Of a stretch of 64,000 bases of DNA, positions 44,678-54,194 are shown one piece after another (position 1 is the first letter of the stretch; every line of letters begins with the position of its first letter). Below the pieces are notes generated by a model. It made no database searches and was not told the DNA's origin. It saw only the letters and a program-made list of their open reading frames with translations. Location: contig DATENU010000002.1 in NCBI GenBank assembly GCA_035274845.1, forward strand, positions 1-64,000, given 5' to 3'. This DNA comes from Chthoniobacterales bacterium (GTDB lineage Bacteria; Verrucomicrobiota; Verrucomicrobiia; Chthoniobacterales; UBA10450). A program made the position numbers and the translations under genes.

Positions 44678-47600
44678 TTAATGCGATACGGCGGGCTCGA
44701 TAGCAATATCCTGCGCGTTGATCGTCGGCGCCGCCTGCCGTCGTTCTTTGAACCACATGATCACCACGTAGAACACCGGCGTGAGGAGCAGGCCGAAGAA
44801 CGTCACGCCCAGCATGCCGAAGAAGACGGCGGTGCCGAGGGCCTGGCGCATTTCCGCGCCTGCTCCGGTGCCGATGACGAGGGGAAACACCCCGAGGATG
44901 AAGGCAAAGCTGGTCATCAAGATCGGCCGGAGACGGAGGCGGCACGCTTCGACGGCGGCCGTGAAGCGATCTTTGTGGTCCCGATCCTGGATCTGCTTCG
45001 CGAATTCGACAATCAGGATGGCATTCTTGCAGGCGAGGCCGACCAGCACGACGAAGCCGATCTGAGTAAAGACGTTGTTGTCCATCGAGCGCAGCCAGAC
45101 GCCGCCGATCGCGCTGAAGATACACATTGGCACGATCAGGATGATTGCGAGCGGCAACGACCAGCTTTCATATTGCGCGGCGAGCAGGAGAAAGACGAAC
45201 AGGACGCAGAGCGGGAAAACGTAGATGGCGCTATTGCCGGCGACTTTCGCCTGGTAGGCGATCTCAGTCCATTCGGTCGTGAAACTCGTCGGTAGAATTT
45301 CCTTGGCCAGGCGCTCGATGGAGTTAATCGCGTCGCCTGTGCTCGTCCCGGGGGCGGGCTGGCCACTCAGATCGGCCGCGGGAAACATGTTGTAGTGGGT
45401 GACCTTGTCCGCACCGTTTACTTCCTGCACGGTCGCGACCGCGCCGAGTGGAACGACCCCGCCGTTGCTGTTGCGCGTCTTGAGCAGACGGATGTCTTCC
45501 GGCTTGAGCCGGAATTGTGAGTCGGCCTGGGCCGTGACGCGGTAGGTGCGCCCAAACAAGGTAAGATCATTTACGTAGGAAGAGCCGAGATAGGTTTGCA
45601 ACGTTCCGAAGATATTGCTTAAGGGCACGTTCATGCTCTTCGCTTTGACGCGATCCACCTCGAGCCAAAGCTGGGGCACATTGGCCCGAAATGTCGTGAT
45701 GTTATTCGTCAGGCCCGGCGTTTGGTTCGCTTTCCCAACCATCGCGAACGCCTGGGCCTGGAGCTCTTCGATGCCGGCGTTGCCTCGATCCTGGATGAAA
45801 ACCTTGTAACCACCCGCGTTGCCGATGCCGGCGACCGGTGGCGGTGGGAATACCGCGACGAGCGCCTCAGGTATCTCCGCGCGCACGCGTGCATTCATCT
45901 TCGCGAGAATCGCCGGGAGCTTTTCCTCAGGCTTGGTCCGCTCAGAGAATTCCTTGAACGGCAGGAAGACCGCGGCGGTGTTTGTCTGATTGCCGCCGAA
46001 AAGATTGAACCCGGCGAATTCAACGGTGTTGAGAATGCCGGGAGTCTCGTGGGCGATCTTGGCAATCTTGTCGACGACCGCCTGGGTGCGATCGAGCGAC
46101 GCGGCATCGGGCAATTGCGCATACACGACGGCGTAGCCGCGATCTTGCGTCGGGAGAAATCCGCCCGGGACGACTTTGAATCCGAGCACGGTGAGGCCAA
46201 GCAAACCCGCGTAAATGAACAGCACAATAACGGCGAGCTTGGTGAGCCGGGAGACAGTATGGCCGTAGGCATTTCCCGCCCACGCAAACACTTTGTTGAA
46301 GCCGCGGAAGAACCAGCCGAGGAGCGCGTCGAGAATGCGCTGAAACCGATCCTTCTCTGCGCCGCGCGGGCGGAGAAGCAGCTTTGCGAGCGCGGGGGAC
46401 AATGTGAGGGAGTTGAACGCCGAGATCGCAGTCGAGACCGCGATCGTGAGCGCGAACTGCCGGAAGAATTGTCCGGTGATTCCGCTCAGGAACGCCGTGG
46501 GAATAAAGACGGCGCAGAGCACGACCGCGATGGCGACGAGCGCGCCTCCGACTTCGCTCATCGCTTCACGGGCGGCGTCGCGCGGGCTGCGGCCTTCTTC
46601 GATTTTGTGCTCGATCGCCTCGACCACCACAATCGCATCGTCGACCACGATTCCGATCGCGAGCACCAGGCCAAAGAGCGAAATGTTGTTGATGGAAAAG
46701 CCAAAAGCCGTCATCGCCGCAAAAGTTCCGATCAATGAAACCGGAATGGCGATGAGCGGGATGATCGCCGCGCGCCAGGTCTGGAGAAACACGAGGACGA
46801 CGAGCACCACCAGCGCGATCGCTTCGAAGAGCGTCTTCTGCACTTCGTGGATCGACTCGCGCACGGAGACAGTCGGGTCATACACGATCGTATAGTCCAG
46901 CCCGGCCGGGAAACGGTGCTTCAGCTCCTCCATCTTTTTGCGCACCGCCGCGGAGGTCTGAAGCGCATTCGAACCGGGCCGCTGGAAAATGCCCATCGCA
47001 GTCGCCGGTTTTCCGCCGAGCTGGCTGTTGACCGTGTAATCGCGCGCCGCCAGCTCGACCCGCGCGACATCACGAATGCGCGTGACCTGCCCGCCGGTTC
47101 CGGTCTTGACCACGATTTCGCCAAACTCGTCCTCATTCGCAAGCCGGCCCTGGGTACTGACGGTGTATTGAAAGGCGGTGGACTCCTTCGGCACCGGCGG
47201 CGCGCCGATGATCCCGGCCGCGACCTGCACGTTCTGCTCCTGGATTGCGCTGACGACGTCCTGCGCGGTCAGCCCTCGCGCGGAAAGCTTGTCCGGATCA
47301 AGCCAGATGCGCATCGAGTATTCGCGCGCCCCGAAGACCGTGATGTCGCCGACGCCATCGAGCCGCGCGAGCTCATCGCGGAGCTGAAGGAGCGCGTAGT
47401 TGCTCGTGAAAAGCGAATCGAGCGAACCATCCGGCGAGACGAGGTGCACGACCATCGTCAGATCGGGTGATTGCTTTCGCGTGGTGACGCCGATGCGCTG
47501 CACATCCTGCGGCAAAGTCGGCACCGCAATCGCGACGCGATTCTGCACCAGCACCTGCGCGTCATCGAGATTGGTCCCGAGCTTGAAGGTGACGGTGAGC

Positions 47601-47872
47601 GCCATGTTGCCATCGCTCGTGCTCTGCGAAGTCATGTAGAGCATGTTCTCCACGCCATTGACCTGCTGCTCGATCGGCGTGGCCACCGTCTCCGCGACCA
47701 CCTTGGCATTCGCGCCCGGATAATTGGCGGTGACCTGAATGGTTGGCGGCGCAATCTCCGGATACTGCGCGATCGGCAAGGTGAAGAGCGCGATGGCGCC
47801 GATCAGCGTGATGAGGATGCTAATGACTCCGGCGAAGATGGGCCGGTCGATGAAAAAGTGAGAGAAGTTCAT
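44678..47872 (-). CDS. RND efflux pump permease (HAE1/AcrB-like)
   Basis: The 1064-residue protein exports hydrophobic compounds with proton antiport. The N-terminus NFSHFFIDRPIFAGVISI and the proton-relay GIVVDDAIVVVEAIEH (Asp pair in TM4) define the HAE1 group. Two six-helix halves and large periplasmic loops are visible, with FLPTQDRGYAVVYAQLPDAASLDR at the second loop. The membrane fusion gene overlaps upstream by 4 bp (ATGA). No outer-membrane channel gene is present, so a TolC-like partner must be elsewhere. Confidence 0.95.
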   Translation of the reverse strand: MNFSHFFIDRPIFAGVISILITLIGAIALFTLPIAQYPEIAPPTIQVTANYPGANAKVVAETVATPIEQQVNGVENMLYMTSQSTSDGNMALTVTFKLGTNLDDAQVLVQNRVAIAVPTLPQDVQRIGVTTRKQSPDLTMVVHLVSPDGSLDSLFTSNYALLQLRDELARLDGVGDITVFGAREYSMRIWLDPDKLSARGLTAQDVVSAIQEQNVQVAAGIIGAPPVPKESTAFQYTVSTQGRLANEDEFGEIVVKTGTGGQVTRIRDVARVELAARDYTVNSQLGGKPATAMGIFQRPGSNALQTSAAVRKKMEELKHRFPAGLDYTIVYDPTVSVRESIHEVQKTLFEAIALVVLVVLVFLQTWRAAIIPLIAIPVSLIGTFAAMTAFGFSINNISLFGLVLAIGIVVDDAIVVVEAIEHKIEEGRSPRDAAREAMSEVGGALVAIAVVLCAVFIPTAFLSGITGQFFRQFALTIAVSTAISAFNSLTLSPALAKLLLRPRGAEKDRFQRILDALLGWFFRGFNKVFAWAGNAYGHTVSRLTKLAVIVLFIYAGLLGLTVLGFKVVPGGFLPTQDRGYAVVYAQLPDAASLDRTQAVVDKIAKIAHETPGILNTVEFAGFNLFGGNQTNTAAVFLPFKEFSERTKPEEKLPAILAKMNARVRAEIPEALVAVFPPPPVAGIGNAGGYKVFIQDRGNAGIEELQAQAFAMVGKANQTPGLTNNITTFRANVPQLWLEVDRVKAKSMNVPLSNIFGTLQTYLGSSYVNDLTLFGRTYRVTAQADSQFRLKPEDIRLLKTRNSNGGVVPLGAVATVQEVNGADKVTHYNMFPAADLSGQPAPGTSTGDAINSIERLAKEILPTSFTTEWTEIAYQAKVAGNSAIYVFPLCVLFVFLLLAAQYESWSLPLAIILIVPMCIFSAIGGVWLRSMDNNVFTQIGFVVLVGLACKNAILIVEFAKQIQDRDHKDRFTAAVEACRLRLRPILMTSFAFILGVFPLVIGTGAGAEMRQALGTAVFFGMLGVTFFGLLLTPVFYVVIMWFKERRQAAPTINAQDIAIEPAVSH

Positions 47873-49218
47873 TGCGCGGATTTGCTTTCTATTGAGGGAG
47901 GCTGCTCAGAAATTGGCGTCACCGGCATTCCCGGCTGGAGGAGCTGCAAACGCGTGGAGACGACCTTCTCGCCGTCCTTCAGACCTTTTTTAACGATCCG
48001 TTTGCCCTCAAAGATTGGGCCTGTTTCGAGATTGCGACGCTCGAGGGTGTTGTCCGGTTTGACGACATAGGCGTACTTCAGTCCCTGCTGGGAACTGATG
48101 ACCTTGTCGGCCACCAAGGCGGCGCGGTATGGGGTCGCGCCGGCCACGCGAATGCGGGCGAAGAAGCCCGGCACGACGAGCGTGCTCCAGTTGCGAAGCA
48201 CCACGCGCGCGCGCACCGTCCCGGTTCCCGGATCGAGGCGGTTATCGACGAAGTCGACTACCCCTTCGTGCGGAAAGTCAGTCTCATTGCCGAGTTGGAC
48301 CCAGGCAGGGATCTGTCCATTGCGAGCGCTCTTCCGCTTACCTTCTTCGTCCAGCTTCACGTACTTCAAAAGGCTGTTTTCGTCCGCGTCGATCCGGACG
48401 TAGATCGGATCGACGGAAACGACCGTGGTAAGAACGCTTTCGGGTCCCGCTCCTGGCTGCACCAGGTTGCCGAGCGTGATGCGAGCATCACTGACCCGTC
48501 CGGCAATCGGCGACTTCACCTGCGTGAACTCGAGATTCAAGGCCGCCGCATTCTTCGCGGCCTCCGCGGAACGCGCCCCGGCGGATGCCTGCTGATAGGT
48601 CGCCGCCTTCTGATCGAACTCGCTCGCGGAAATGGTGTTCTTGCTCCGCAGGTCCTTCGCGCGATCCAATTCGATCTGCGCGAGTTTCTGGTTCGCCTGG
48701 GTGCGCTCGAATTCGGCCGCCGCGCGATCGAAGTCGGCCTGATACGGGCGCGGATCGATGACGTAAAGCAGATCGCCGGCCTTGACCATGGCCCCGGCCT
48801 CGAACTTCACCTCTGTAATGTAACCGGAAACGCGGGGCCGCACTTCCACCGACTCCACAGCATCAAGGCGCCCCGTGTATTCGTCCCACTCGTTCACATC
48901 CTTCTCGACGACCGTGACAACATTCACGGGCAGCGCTGGCTGCGATTGAGGCGCGCTTGGTTTGCAGGCGGCCAACGCGAGCGCCGCCAGCGCGACAACC
49001 CCAAAGCGCACGGATTGTCCGATGGACCCTGTCCGGCTGCGTCCTGCGCTTCTGCGTTCGTTGATCTTCTTCGGATGCGCGTTCGCTTCGTCTGGGAGGT
49101 CTGCGAATCTCAGACGAATCTTCTGTTGCCGATGACCGAAATCGGTCACCAAGCCCTCCTGCCACTCCAGGACGAGCCCGGGCGCGGTGAGCGAAACTGG
49201 TGGACTTATTAGGTTCAT
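47869..49218 (-). CDS. RND periplasmic adaptor (AcrA/MexA-like)
   Basis: The adaptor joins the RND pump to an outer-membrane channel. A lipobox (ALALAAC, Cys near residue 85) follows a ~70-residue polar N-terminus that is unusual for the family. The HlyD-type barrel-sandwich and coiled-coil hairpin are clear: VEVRPRVSGYITEVKFEAGA, FERTQANQKLAQIELDRAKDL, ALNLEFTQVKSPIAGRVSDA. AAAGGAAG stands 7 bp before ATG 49218, supporting that start, although a GTG at 49008 would give a standard-length lipoprotein. The upstream region carries the 47-bp element. Confidence 0.9.
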   Translation of the reverse strand: MNLISPPVSLTAPGLVLEWQEGLVTDFGHRQQKIRLRFADLPDEANAHPKKINERRSAGRSRTGSIGQSVRFGVVALAALALAACKPSAPQSQPALPVNVVTVVEKDVNEWDEYTGRLDAVESVEVRPRVSGYITEVKFEAGAMVKAGDLLYVIDPRPYQADFDRAAAEFERTQANQKLAQIELDRAKDLRSKNTISASEFDQKAATYQQASAGARSAEAAKNAAALNLEFTQVKSPIAGRVSDARITLGNLVQPGAGPESVLTTVVSVDPIYVRIDADENSLLKYVKLDEEGKRKSARNGQIPAWVQLGNETDFPHEGVVDFVDNRLDPGTGTVRARVVLRNWSTLVVPGFFARIRVAGATPYRAALVADKVISSQQGLKYAYVVKPDNTLERRNLETGPIFEGKRIVKKGLKDGEKVVSTRLQLLQPGMPVTPISEQPPSIESKSAQ

Positions 49219-49262: not shown

Positions 49263-49309
49263 GGTGAGAAAGACTATGTTTCTTGCCTCACCATGCCTGG
49301 TGGGCATAC
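49263..49309 (-). promoter_or_regulatory. 47-bp conserved element, copy 1
   Basis: Read on the plus strand it contains AGAAAGACTATGTTTCTTG and CTCACCATG, then GGGCATAC. It shares most positions with 52033-52079 and 54103-54149. The core has the dyad AAGA-N7-TCTT on the minus strand. It lies between the divergent RND adaptor (44 bp to its ATG) and lysR (11 bp before its GTG), where a LysR regulator would bind. Confidence 0.7.
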
Positions 49310-49320
49310 CCTAATGGGCC

Positions 49321-50223
49321 GTGGAACTGCGGCATTTACGTTACTTCGTCGCGGTGGCCGAGATGGAAAACGTCTCGCGGGCCGCGATGCAGCGGTTGCA
49401 CGTTTCGCAGCCGTCGCTCAGCCGCCAGATTCGCGATCTCGAAGATGAAATGGGCGTGCAGTTGCTCGAACGCACAGCGAAGTCGGTTCGCCTGACCGAC
49501 GCAGGTCGCGCGTTTCTCGATGAGGCGCGCGCGATTCTAAAACAGACCAGCGACGCCGTGGGGAAAGTGCGCGCCATCGCTGGCAAGGGTGACACCGAGC
49601 TGCACATTGGCGATTGGCCGCTCGCCACCGGCCGGATCCTGCCCGGGCTTCTTCGCGCGTATCAAAAAGCGATGCCTAAGGTGAAAGTGAAGGTGCATGA
49701 TTGGGCGGTGGAGAAGAACATCTCGGGAGTGCGCGATGGTCGCCTGCAGCTCGCGATCATTCTTCCACCGCTCAAAGGAAATGCGCTGGAGGAGCTGCGG
49801 TTCGAACCATTGTTCACTGGGCGCGTTTGCCTCGCCGTTTCATGCGATCATCCATTCGCCTCGCGCCGATCCGTTCCGTTAGCCGACGCCGCGCGCGAAC
49901 CGTTCGTCGGGCTGACGCGCGAGGACTATCCGCGTTACCTGGAATATTTGAGTGCGATCTTTGCGCCTGTGAACGAGAAGCCGCGCCTCGTGGAGGAGCA
50001 GGATGGTTGGTCTGGTGTTTTTTCCGCTGTCAGCGCCGGCGCGGGAATTGCACTCACATCGGACGCGTTCAATTATGCGTTCAACGACCGGATCAAATGC
50101 GTGCGCCTCACGCCTGAACCGAAACGCGTCGTCGTCGGGATGATTACGCGAAAAGGAAAACTCACCCCGGCCACGGAGATGTTCTGCCAGTGTGCGAAGG
50201 ACGCCTTTGCTTCTATGCGTTAG
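49321..50223 (+). CDS. LysR-family transcriptional regulator
   Basis: The 300-residue protein has an N-terminal winged helix: ELRHLRYFVAVAEMENVSRA, LHVSQPSLSRQIRDLEDEMG, LLERTAKSVRLTDAG. The C-terminal effector-binding domain has LAVSCDHPFASRR. GTG 49321 is the start. The gene is divergent from the RND pump operon, a usual arrangement for a local regulator. Copy 1 of the 47-bp element lies in the 102-bp gap, so this protein is the first candidate to bind all three copies. The effector is unknown. Confidence 0.93.
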   Translation: MELRHLRYFVAVAEMENVSRAAMQRLHVSQPSLSRQIRDLEDEMGVQLLERTAKSVRLTDAGRAFLDEARAILKQTSDAVGKVRAIAGKGDTELHIGDWPLATGRILPGLLRAYQKAMPKVKVKVHDWAVEKNISGVRDGRLQLAIILPPLKGNALEELRFEPLFTGRVCLAVSCDHPFASRRSVPLADAAREPFVGLTREDYPRYLEYLSAIFAPVNEKPRLVEEQDGWSGVFSAVSAGAGIALTSDAFNYAFNDRIKCVRLTPEPKRVVVGMITRKGKLTPATEMFCQCAKDAFASMR

Positions 50224-50235
50224 GCCGCGCCGGTC

Positions 50236-50682
50236 CTAGACGTGGGCGTGGAGTGACATTAGTTCGCGCCGGCAGGCTTCGCTAAAGGCCTTGAGCGGAT
50301 CAATTCCTCCATTATGAACACGTTCGTGAAATTCTTCGACCGACACATTCGGCTCGAAATATTGTTCCATGATGAATTTCACCAGCTCTACCGCGTCGGC
50401 GAGGACAGCCTCCGAGGCGCACAGCCGAATACGGTTCAGCAACGCATAGATCGACAACAGGGTCTCCGGCCTGTCGAGGTTTCGCTCGAGTGAGTCCATC
50501 ACCCGTTTCGAGCATTCGTTGATGAATTCGCCGTAAAGCGTTTCGCGCCTGTTTAGTTCGGCGCGCAGCGCGGCGCGCCGATTGCGAGCCTTTTGCGCGA
50601 CCCACGCCGTCGCCACGCTCGCCGAGCCGCCGGTCAGCGATCCGAAAATACCCGCCAGCGCGGTAACGATTGTAGTGTCCAT
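50236..50682 (-). CDS. hypothetical membrane-anchored protein
   Basis: ATG 50682 gives 148 residues. An N-terminal hydrophobic helix (TTIVTALAGIFGSLTGGSASVATAW) is followed by a basic helical region (QKARNRRAALRAELNRRETL) and a soluble helical part with ECSKRVMDSLERN and VKFIMEQYFEP. No family is recognised. It begins 2 bp after the stop of the NDH-2-like gene, so it is the second gene of that transcript. Confidence 0.6.
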   Translation of the reverse strand: MDTTIVTALAGIFGSLTGGSASVATAWVAQKARNRRAALRAELNRRETLYGEFINECSKRVMDSLERNLDRPETLLSIYALLNRIRLCASEAVLADAVELVKFIMEQYFEPNVSVEEFHERVHNGGIDPLKAFSEACRRELMSLHAHV

Positions 50683-50684
50683 GA

Positions 50685-52004
50685 CTAGGCTGCGCGTCGT
50701 CCGCGGAGCCGTGTCCACCGCTCACTAAGCTCCTCAACATCGCGCAGCGTGATCATCTGTTCGATTTCGCGTCCGAAAACAAGATCGAGTGTCCACGCCG
50801 TCATCACCCGCAGTTTCTTCACCAACCGCGGAAGCTTCGCCAGATAAACCGAGCGCCACATCCACCAGGCAATGAACCCGGAGAACTTGAATCCGAAGAA
50901 ACTCGCTACCCCGGTATGATGGCCGATGCTCGCGAGCATTCCCATCGTCCGGTAACGGAACGGCTTTAGTTCTTGATCGAGAATCGTGCGCTCGATGTTC
51001 TTCGCCGCCGTCAGTGCCTCGCGCATTCCGTGCTGCGCAGTGGGCGGGAACCACCTTCCAGTTTCGTAACCATCGGGAACCGCCGCGCAATCGCCCGCTG
51101 TCCAAAGTCCGGGGAATCCGGGAACCTGAAGATATTGATCTGCAATAATCCGTCCTCTCTCTTTCGGACACGCCAAAGCGGCGACCACCGGACTGGGTTT
51201 TACCCCCGCCGTCCAAACAAGGGTCGCGGCGGGAATCGACATGCCGTTGTTCAGGGTAACGTCCCAACCATCGTAGCTGGCCACGCGCGCGCCTTTGATC
51301 ACGTCCACGTTGCGCTCGCGCAGTTTGTGTTCGGCATATCGGCCGAGCTCTTCGCCCAGCTCCGGGAGCAAATAATCACCGGGATGAATCACCACCACGC
51401 GAATTTCCTCTTCGCCCACTTGCGGGTAAAACTTCGCCGCCTGGCGAACGAAATCGTTGACCGCGCCCGCTGTTTCCGCGCCGGCAAATCCGCCGCCGGC
51501 GATGACAAAGGTGAGCCATTGGCGGCGCGCGGCCGTATCCTTCTCCAGGCTTCCTTCCTCCAAAAACGCCACCATTCGGTTTCTCAGCAGGGCCGCATCG
51601 CTGAGGCTCTTCATCGTCACCGACCAATCCCGGATGCCGGCGTTTTCGAAAAAATTTGTCTCGGAGCCGAGAGCGAGAAGCAAATGATCGAAGTCGAACT
51701 CGAGCTCGCGCTGATCCAAGCCGTGGACGCAACGAACTTTGCGCGCGCCAGGATCGATATCTGAGACATCAGCTCCGATCACATTAACGTGGCGCAGAAT
51801 TCGCCGCAGTGGATTGACGATGTCCCCGGGCGCCAGGTCGCCAGCCGCCACCTCATGCAACATCGGCGTGAAGAGAATATAATTCTCCCGCGCGATCAGC
51901 GTCACTTCCACGTCCGCCCGGCGCGCCAGATGTCTGTCCAAATATTTTGCGGCGTAGAGCCCGGCAAACCCGCCACCCGCGATCACGATCCGTGTTTTCT
52001 TCAT
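50685..52004 (-). CDS. NDH-2-like NAD(P)H dehydrogenase
   Basis: The 439-residue flavoprotein begins MKKTRIVIAGGGFAGLYAAK, the FAD-binding Rossmann loop. A second FVIAGGGFAGAETAG binds NAD(P)H, and IWTAGVKPS-type and FPGLWTAGDCAAVPDG motifs follow. The C-terminal membrane-binding helix FSGFIAWWMWRSVYLAKLPR is typical of type II NADH:quinone oxidoreductases. An in-frame ATG at 52064 would add 20 residues and run into the element at 52033-52079. ATG 52004 is therefore preferred. It probably oxidises NADH at the membrane during redox stress. Confidence 0.9.
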   Translation of the reverse strand: MKKTRIVIAGGGFAGLYAAKYLDRHLARRADVEVTLIARENYILFTPMLHEVAAGDLAPGDIVNPLRRILRHVNVIGADVSDIDPGARKVRCVHGLDQRELEFDFDHLLLALGSETNFFENAGIRDWSVTMKSLSDAALLRNRMVAFLEEGSLEKDTAARRQWLTFVIAGGGFAGAETAGAVNDFVRQAAKFYPQVGEEEIRVVVIHPGDYLLPELGEELGRYAEHKLRERNVDVIKGARVASYDGWDVTLNNGMSIPAATLVWTAGVKPSPVVAALACPKERGRIIADQYLQVPGFPGLWTAGDCAAVPDGYETGRWFPPTAQHGMREALTAAKNIERTILDQELKPFRYRTMGMLASIGHHTGVASFFGFKFSGFIAWWMWRSVYLAKLPRLVKKLRVMTAWTLDLVFGREIEQMITLRDVEELSERWTRLRGRRAA

Positions 52005-52032: not shown

Positions 52033-52079
52033 GTTGGGAAAGACCATGTTTCTTTACTCAGCATAGTCAGCGAGCATGG
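52033..52079 (-). promoter_or_regulatory. 47-bp conserved element, copy 2
   Basis: Plus-strand core GGGAAAGACCATGTTTCTT then CTCAGCATA and GAGCATGG. It lies 28 bp upstream of the NDH-2-like ATG and overlaps the last 26 bp of the upstream hydrolase pseudogene. Dyad and spacing are the same as in the other copies. Confidence 0.7.
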
Positions 52080-53601
52080 TTGAATTGCGCGGTTTGCGGG
52101 CAGGGCCTCGCCCCAATTCCTCGCGAAGAATCCGGATCACTTCCCTCTGCGCCTCGGGATTGTTAAAAGCGTTGTGTCCGCTTCGGACGATCAGCTCTGA
52201 CGATGCGCCGCCGAGATGCGCGCTCGAGTAGGCAACGACGCCGTCACTTGCCCCGCCGTCGTGCTTTTGCCCGATGATGTTGTGAAATGGCACCGCGATC
52301 GGCAAACGCGCGGCCGCGAGCAACGTTGGATTGCGGGGCGAAAGGGTGTGCACTGAGGTGAAGTTCAGTTGTTTGAAAAAGGCGGCTCCTTCCGTCGTTG
52401 TGACCCCCGTGTTCGCCTGGTCAACCTCCGCGAACCCATTTTGCAATTCGTTGGGCAATCGAATGAGCGACTGCGCGAAGCCCCCGATCCAGGAGTCGGC
52501 CATCGAGCTGCCCCGATGCGGAGTGGATATGAAGATCGCGCGAACCACGCGGGGATTACGCTGGAAGAACAAGCCGCGCCGCAACAGCTGGATCGTCTCG
52601 GGATTGCCGCGCAATTATTCTGGCGGAACGACGAAGAGACTCGTCCAGAGCCGATCGCCGCTCGAACTGACGAGCGTATGCGTGAGCAACCCGCCCATGC
52701 TGTGGCCAACCACGACAATGCGGTGCGTCGCAAAATCGTCGTCGTTGGGATCGACCAGGCGGACCGTCCGCTCGAGTTGCTGGCGGAGCCTGAGGGCGTT
52801 CAGCAGAACCGGCGTGCCGGTACTATAATAAAAGTGCCAGAATTGAAAACGCCGGGCGATTTCTGGGTCGCTTTCGAGGGCCGTCACGAGTTTCAAGAAG
52901 GTGACAGGCGTCGACTGCAATCCGTGCACCAGCAAAATGGGGATCTTGTCCGGATCGTAGGGCTGGGTCAGAACAATCTCCGCTTTCGCGCGAACGTCCG
53001 GATGGAGCAGGTTCGTCAGTCCGCTTTGCGCGACGGTCCGGGCGCGACGGACGAGCATTGAAGTTGCGGCGGCTTTGTCGGTGGCAAGCGGATAGATCGA
53101 TCGACCCAGCGCGATTTCGTTCGCGGCTGGAAGGAAGGATAGATGCGCTCGGTTGTGCACTCGCCGGTAGACTGCTGTCGCGGGGAGAAACATCCCAGCG
53201 CGCGGATAAATCGGGGCGCGACCGGTGTCGTATTCGAGGACGACCGGCGCGCCAAGCGCCGAAAGCTCGTTTCGCGGCGGCGTTGTCGGAACAGCGTGAT
53301 AGCGAACCAGCGGCAGTTTCATGGCCGGCTCGTCGATCGTTATTCCAGTGTCGCGCAGCTCGCTGTGTAATTCTGCCGGAGTGGCAAGATTGAGATCTCG
53401 CGCGATAGAACCGAGCGTCGCGTTGTATGCCCGGGTGTGATCTGGCGCCAACTGCCGATAAGAGGATTCGGCCGCCGCGATATCGTGGCGAAGATGGTCC
53501 GGTGAAGCAACCCGCGTCGAAGCGCAACCGGCAAACACCAGAAACGCTGCGGCAATCGCGAGCCTGCCAGCTCTTTCGGTCTTCATTCGGTTAATGCGCA
53601 T
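52054..53601 (-). pseudogene. alpha/beta hydrolase interrupted by an in-frame stop
   Basis: One continuous frame runs from ATG 53601 (or 53586) to 52054 but has TAA at 52615-52617 after FVVPPE. The first part has a lipobox (LVFAGC), LLVHGLQSTP and VVGHSMGGLLTH (nucleophile Ser). After the stop come IFISTPHRGSSMADSW, KHDGGASDGVVAYSS and SGHNAFNNPEAQREV (acid and His). Homologues, as I recall them, read VPPEKL where this has VPPE-stop-L, so one AAA or AAG to TAA change would explain it. The short product would lack its catalytic His. A TTG directly after the stop could restart translation. It is coupled to the small ORF at 53591. Confidence 0.8.
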
Positions 53602-53794
53602 GGCCTTGTTCGAACGCCAGGGAAAAACCAAGCAATTGGGCGAGACGCGATTCGTAGGAGTCACAGGTTGGACAATCGCCATTTGCTTCAATCCATTCCG
53701 GGTGCTGCGTGCGGAGCGCATCGTGCATCTCACGCTGAAGCCCGACATAGGTCGCGCCTTGAGTGGCCGAATTCGTCGATCCGGTCGTATTCAT
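53591..53794 (-). CDS. 67-residue small protein of the coupled operon
   Basis: MNTTGSTNSATQGATYVGLQ, then helical REMHDALRTQHPEWIEANGDCPTCDSYESRLAQLLGF. A CPTC motif lies in the middle and could bind metal or form a disulfide. Its ATG overlaps the upstream TGA (ATGA) and its end overlaps the hydrolase start. No family is recognised. Confidence 0.6.
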   Translation of the reverse strand: MNTTGSTNSATQGATYVGLQREMHDALRTQHPEWIEANGDCPTCDSYESRLAQLLGFSLAFEQGHAH

Positions 53795-53964
53795 CGGTAA
53801 CCCCACACGTTCTCGCGCTGCGGAATCGGACTGAAGATGCGGTCCCAACTGCTGCCCGAATTAAAGAGCGCCATGCTCAACACCAGCATCGGGTCGTGTC
53901 GCCGGCACCCGTAAAGCCATCGTAACCTTGGTGATTTCCTTTGATTCTTTTTGGTGGTGTTCAT
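53791..53964 (-). CDS. 57-residue small protein of the coupled operon
   Basis: MNTTKKNQRKSPRLRWLYGC, then RRHDPMLVLSMALFNSGSSW and a polar tail RIFSPIPQRENVWGYR. The N-terminus is basic and the middle weakly hydrophobic. It starts at TAATG with the upstream ORF and ends at ATGA with the next, so translation is coupled at both ends. No family is recognised. Confidence 0.55.
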   Translation of the reverse strand: MNTTKKNQRKSPRLRWLYGCRRHDPMLVLSMALFNSGSSWDRIFSPIPQRENVWGYR

Positions 53965-54074
53965 TAGCGACCTCCGACAAGTTTGCGGCTCTGATCGCCA
54001 CGGCCATTCGCGTTTTCGCCAGTAATCGTGAACAGCGCGAGAACCAGGGCCCACAGGATTGATATCGTGCTCAT
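53964..54074 (-). CDS. 36-residue leader-like peptide of the coupled operon
   Basis: MSTISILWALVLALFTITGE is a hydrophobic N-terminus like a signal anchor, followed by NANGRGDQSRKLVGGR. It is the first ORF after the 47-bp element at 54103 (28 bp away) and its TAA overlaps the next ATG (TAATG). Short length makes the call depend on coupling and position. Confidence 0.5.
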   Translation of the reverse strand: MSTISILWALVLALFTITGENANGRGDQSRKLVGGR

Positions 54075-54102: not shown

Positions 54103-54149
54103 CTTGGGAAAGACTACGTTTCTTGTCTCAGCATAACCAACAGGCATGC
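54103..54149 (-). promoter_or_regulatory. 47-bp conserved element, copy 3
   Basis: Plus-strand core GGGAAAGACTACGTTTCTT, then CTCAGCATA and AGGCATGC. It lies 28 bp upstream of the 36-residue ORF, the same spacing as copy 2 to its gene, and separates this operon from the end of the MFS gene. Confidence 0.7.
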
Positions 54150-54194
54150 TGCGCGGCCGGTTACTTGTTTCGTGACGCGAGGGAGTCGCAGCTT

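Follow-up and report, generated by a model that had tools for sequence, protein, structure and literature searches.

Genes and candidate elements at the locus

The window, a stretch of 64,000 nucleotides from a Chthoniobacterales genome (4.54 Mb, 24 contigs), contained a chain of three short open reading frames (ORFs) leading into an alpha/beta-hydrolase gene, close to genes for a LysR-type regulator, an RND pump and an NDH-2-like oxidoreductase. Homologue searches covered 83 genomes of the same bacterial family. The features considered were the following:

44678..47872, minus strand: RND permease, MexF/OqxB-like
47869..49218, minus strand: RND periplasmic adaptor
49268..49311, minus strand: candidate operator E1, between the LysR gene (plus strand) and the MexE-like adaptor gene (minus strand)
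49321..50223, plus strand: LysR-type regulator, the proposed reader of E1–E3
50236..50682, minus strand: 148-aa protein, hydrophobic at its N-terminus; encoded downstream of the NDH-2-like gene
50685..52004, minus strand: NDH-2-like FAD/NAD oxidoreductase
52038..52081, minus strand: candidate operator E2, preceding the NDH-2-like gene; includes the hydrolase stop codon
52054..52614, minus strand: hydrolase, 3' part, in the same frame past an in-frame stop
52615..53601, minus strand: alpha/beta-hydrolase lipoprotein, 5' part
53591..53794, minus strand: o67, 67 aa
53791..53964, minus strand: o57, basic peptide of 57 aa
53964..54074, minus strand: o36, hydrophobic peptide of 36 aa (MSTISILWALVLALF...), with homologues at the same place in G037 and G020
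54108..54151, minus strand: candidate operator E3, preceding o36; dyad CAGCATGCCTGTTGGTTATGCTG (T-N11-A) plus TGAGACAAGAAACGTAGTCTTTC

The LysR protein matched PF00126 with 80.9 bits (cut-off 26.6) and PF03466 with 103.5 bits (cut-off 28) and had 1ixc and BenM as its PDB relatives, but reached no equivalog cut-off in NCBIfam. The permease exceeded the cut-off of NF000282 (1409 versus 1250 bits) and matched PF00873. The best NCBIfam match of the adaptor was MexE, with 365 bits versus a cut-off of 714, and the general family TIGR01730 was above its cut-off. The oxidoreductase matched PF07992 and PF22366 (NDH2_C) above cut-off. The 148-aa protein had no match in Pfam and was conserved in G020, G037, G056 and G074.

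Coupling and conservation of the small ORFs

On the minus strand, o36 and o57 were joined by TAATG and o57 and o67 by ATGA, and the ATG of the lipoprotein-hydrolase at 53601 overlapped o67 by 11 bp. An earlier note on this DNA had described these ORF lengths and junctions, and the hydrophobic, basic and CPTC-containing products, all correctly on re-reading of the sequence. Its argument that a four-gene coupling is hard to get by chance did not hold. In 60 third-order (two-base context) Markov resamples of the 64-kb window, chains of three ORFs of 25–100 aa joined by TAATG or ATGA occurred 4.5 times per 64 kb on average (maximum 11), compared with one such chain in the real window; the null was defined for the three-ORF chain, and the fourth overlap, with the hydrolase, lay outside it. 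Since coupling by itself is no evidence, the case for the three ORFs rests on their conservation in relatives.

The earlier note had suggested looking for the same tiny ORFs before homologous hydrolases in relatives. All three were found there in G037, a member of another genus, and o36 and o67 in G020, where an ATGA junction lay between them and o57 was absent from the operon. The homologues of o36 at the corresponding position were VITMSILCTLVLALF (G037) and MIAMSIFWALVLALF (G020). An o36-like match in G079 (L127), at a distance from the operator, was left out; this short ORF was known from three loci only. The frames were kept, and instead of the equal synonymous and nonsynonymous change that the note had set against its own proposal, dN/dS values of about 0.17–0.41 were obtained versus operon-type relatives, the ratios being approximate because dS was near saturation. 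Where dS was defined, the ratio for o67 was 0.17 versus G037 and 0.20 versus G004 (0.17–0.35 over the operon-type relatives), and for o57 it was 0.30 versus G037 and 0.41 versus G004, and higher for more distant o57 copies; for o36 it was 0.27, on 29 codons. The o57 and o67 families thus appear to be mostly under purifying selection.

Could the coupling be a product of chance, and the ORFs non-coding? The frequency of such chains in resampled sequence would suit this explanation, which we consider very improbable: frames, motifs and order were conserved in other genera, which contradicts it for o57 and o67, if not fully for o36. Judged by their sequences, o36, o57 and o67 look like genuine conserved small protein genes.

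Distribution of o57 and o67

Matches to o67 were present in 50 of the 83 family genomes, with up to eight copies per genome, and matches to o57 in 44. Named records among the o67 homologues came from soil Verrucomicrobia, Spartobacteria, Chthoniobacterales and Candidatus Udaeobacter. Across a sample of the phylum, o67 was essentially restricted to its own family; weak candidates occurred elsewhere in the class, and two of these, although distant, retained the HPxW and CxxC motifs. A RENVW-subfamily o57 was located 2–3 bp before o67 in G004 and in G079, where this hydrolase was absent.

Copies of both families lay close to Dps genes. An o67 copy was found within 5 kb of 12 of the family's 37 Dps genes versus 0.19 expected, and an o57 copy within that distance of five of the 37 versus 0.10 expected, both figures being uncorrected for shared ancestry. 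The window genome carried a second o67 directly before Dps, and G014 an o57 in that position. Copies of o67 and o57 were seen immediately upstream of Dps genes at L033 (4879-5073) and L110 (1411-1617). Further neighbours of o57 and o67 included SDR, two-component and thioredoxin-like genes. By this distribution, each of o57 and o67 is a multi-copy family of its own and is not bound to this hydrolase, a point that the earlier note had missed.

The short ORFs might instead be upstream ORFs with a regulatory role: as leader peptides, they would set the level of hydrolase expression through the act of being translated, and their products would be inert. Tight coupling into the hydrolase would be expected of such ORFs, and o36, besides being short, lies near the promoter and occurs in this operon only, with a start codon and spacing that vary among relatives; its start codon sits at the site of a short leader ATG in other loci. 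We regard this explanation as unlikely for the chain as a whole, because o57 and o67 occurred in dozens of genomes without this hydrolase, also as separate genes, because their protein sequence was conserved, and because neither a terminator nor an Rfam element was found in the leader region. For o36 alone it may still hold. A simple scan found no sigma-70 promoter.

Features of the peptides

None of the three peptides scored above a curated cut-off in Pfam, NCBIfam or PADLOC, in line with the earlier impression that no known family was visible. The o57 family shared the motif RRHDPMLVLNMSxFNFTDGWxRxFS, with L27, F34, N35 and W40 invariant in the alignment, and the window copy belonged to the subfamily ending in RENVW. 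Its AF2 model was a single helix, weakly supported (pLDDT 61). The o67 family shared the motif LQxQIHDALRxQHPEWVExNGDCPTCDSYESRLAELL, with L19, H24, L27, H31, P32, W34, G39, P42 and Y47 invariant. C44 was nearly invariant (lost in one copy) and C41 was replaced by Ser in several copies, so a four-ligand metal site in o67 would not be strict. The AF2 model of o67 was a low-confidence helical hairpin of residues 7–30 and 44–65 (pLDDT 65), and the best match of the o67 profile in the PDB had an E-value of only about 0.44.

A tentative reading, possible rather than probable, makes o57 and o67 the two components, a basic peptide and a His/Cys helical hairpin, of a new small-protein stress module in this verrucomicrobial family. 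Many copies of it would lie next to stress genes of various kinds, and at this locus it would have come under a LysR efflux regulon along with a membrane peptide.

An in-frame stop in the hydrolase gene

In this assembly, the hydrolase gene is split by an in-frame stop, a feature missed by the earlier note. The 5' part contains the GHSMGG nucleophile motif and ends at TAA (52617-52615), codon 329 of 516, after which the frame is open to 52054. The frame was uninterrupted in G020 and G037, both of which have Arg at the stop position. The TAA falls 3' of GHSMGG and 5' of the conserved SDG and SGH motifs, which, in the standard alpha/beta-hydrolase layout, presumably carry the Asp and His. Truncation has probably left the product inactive. 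Close full-length orthologues of the hydrolase were found in only three of the 83 genomes (its own, G020 and G037), and the gene has probably been lost or is being lost in the window genome.

Decay could extend to the whole operon, leaving the small ORFs as remnants beside a broken hydrolase. The TAA ahead of the predicted catalytic His region would agree with this, as would the separate GGAGG start region of G037 and G020, which seems to have been lost at o36 in the window. We nevertheless give decay of the operon little credence. In the window, none of the three small frames was interrupted and their coupling was preserved. Beyond the TAA, the hydrolase frame stayed open with a low dN/dS (about 0.20–0.34), which leaves a recent stop, an assembly error or readthrough as explanations and makes any loss recent.

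A three-copy candidate LysR operator

A 47-bp element occurred in exactly three copies in the whole 4.54 Mb genome, all on the minus strand and within 5 kb (E1–E3); a control pattern gave no copies, and none was expected in shuffled sequence. With three sites only, a genome-wide global operator was rejected. E1 faced the RND pump, E2 the NDH-2-like gene and E3 o36. The MFS gene at 55805-54195 was rejected as a further member of the regulon because E3 lies after it.

Each of E1, E2 and E3 had the T-N11-A spacing that is the consensus of LysR-type operators (PMC6018408). The dyad was a perfect palindrome over 23 bp in G072 only and partial in the window. E1 was located about 25 bp from the LysR start codon, and the geometry was comparable next to the same LysR in nine genomes; the regulators adjoining the operator in G020 and G037 were 84–86% identical to that of the window. 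The element was present in nine of the ten genomes with this LysR versus three of the 73 without it (Fisher p 6e-9). Two matches with three mismatches, in G021 and G045, look unrelated and share no LysR; with these omitted, the Fisher p was 3e-10. In relatives, the operator targets included NDH-2 and RND genes and, in G014, G018, G074 and G079, a quinone oxidoreductase after the operator. From its spacing and its co-occurrence with the regulator, we identify the 47-bp element as a predicted three-copy LysR-type operator, an assignment that the earlier note had missed.

Proposed regulon and comparison with known systems

The reading we favour, and consider rather likely, is that the small genes are the co-transcribed and translationally coupled head of the hydrolase operon within a LysR efflux and redox-stress regulon, the LysR protein reading the three operators. 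The small genes would then probably be switched on by the neighbouring LysR within a stress or drug-efflux response. The LysR protein (49321-50223) would bind E1–E3 through the dyad with T-N11-A spacing plus the fixed right-hand part. Three units would stand under the operator: LysR itself with the MexE/F-like RND pump; the NDH-2-like oxidoreductase with the 148-aa protein; and o36, o57 and o67 with the hydrolase. A toxic or redox-active small molecule would lead LysR to activate all three, upon which the compound would be exported and redox balance restored. In such a response, o67 may be a helical hairpin that is soluble and carries a metal or redox site made of His and Cys (H24, H31, C41, C44), o57 a basic accessory peptide acting with it, and o36 a membrane peptide. 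We infer LysR binding, induction, the inducer and the functions of the three peptides from sequence, the peptide roles from motifs and neighbours only. The stress part of the "membrane or stress module" suggested earlier gained support from the LysR, RND efflux and NDH-2-like genes and from the o57 and o67 relatives near Dps, whereas the sole basis for its membrane part is the hydrophobic o36 and the efflux pump.

The activator of mexEF-oprN in Pseudomonas aeruginosa is MexT, and the proposed role of mexS is to detoxify the molecules that activate MexT (PMC10848761). The window resembles this system in that its LysR gene (49321, plus strand) is linked to an RND adaptor (49218, minus strand) and permease (47872, minus strand), and in that oxidoreductases would stand under the common operator, an NDH-2-like one in the window and the quinone oxidoreductase in the four relatives named above. 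It differs in having an NDH-2-like gene in place of MexS and an adaptor that falls below the MexE cut-off (365 versus 714 bits), and no OprN-type outer-membrane factor was seen in the pump operon: the window's ORF list shows no third gene on the minus strand beyond 44678. By analogy, the best-supported reading is that the window regulon works like MexT-MexEF-MexS; we do not claim membership of the MexT regulon, given the adaptor's sub-threshold MexE score and the failure to find an outer-membrane factor. The o36/o57/o67 genes with the hydrolase have no counterpart in the MexT system as described (PMC10848761).

With CbnR, BenM and OxyR, LysR regulators of aromatic or oxidative stress genes, the window LysR shares both Pfam domains and the T-N11-A operator, and its nearest structures are 1ixc and BenM; unlike them, it would control small-protein genes. 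Like small unannotated stress-adjacent genes generally, o57 and o67 are short, conserved and often located by Dps, two-component or SDR genes, but they stay below the cut-off of every Pfam and NCBIfam family. They are conserved multi-copy small proteins without an annotated family in a family of abundant soil Verrucomicrobia, the relatives of which include Candidatus Udaeobacter, for which multidrug resistance and a benefit from antibiotics in soil have been reported (PMC7343977). The candidate LysR operator offers a concrete handle, predicting co-responding genes and giving a route to the inducer.

Further observations near the operator in relatives

A conserved GCCGATCGT box was located about 20 nt downstream of the operator at L116, L117, L120, L127 and L132. 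The peptide start MSRTIEAIxxHM recurred, opening small ORFs after the operator (L116, L127, L128, L132), and quinone oxidoreductase and aldo/keto reductase proteins elsewhere start much like it. At L140 (G014:C45), the LysR and RND permease homologues by the operator were recovered in several tblastn pieces, suggesting frameshifts. At L138 (G079:C49), the operator also preceded a gene of DUF3300-type appearance, about 0.6 kb after an o57-o67 pair.
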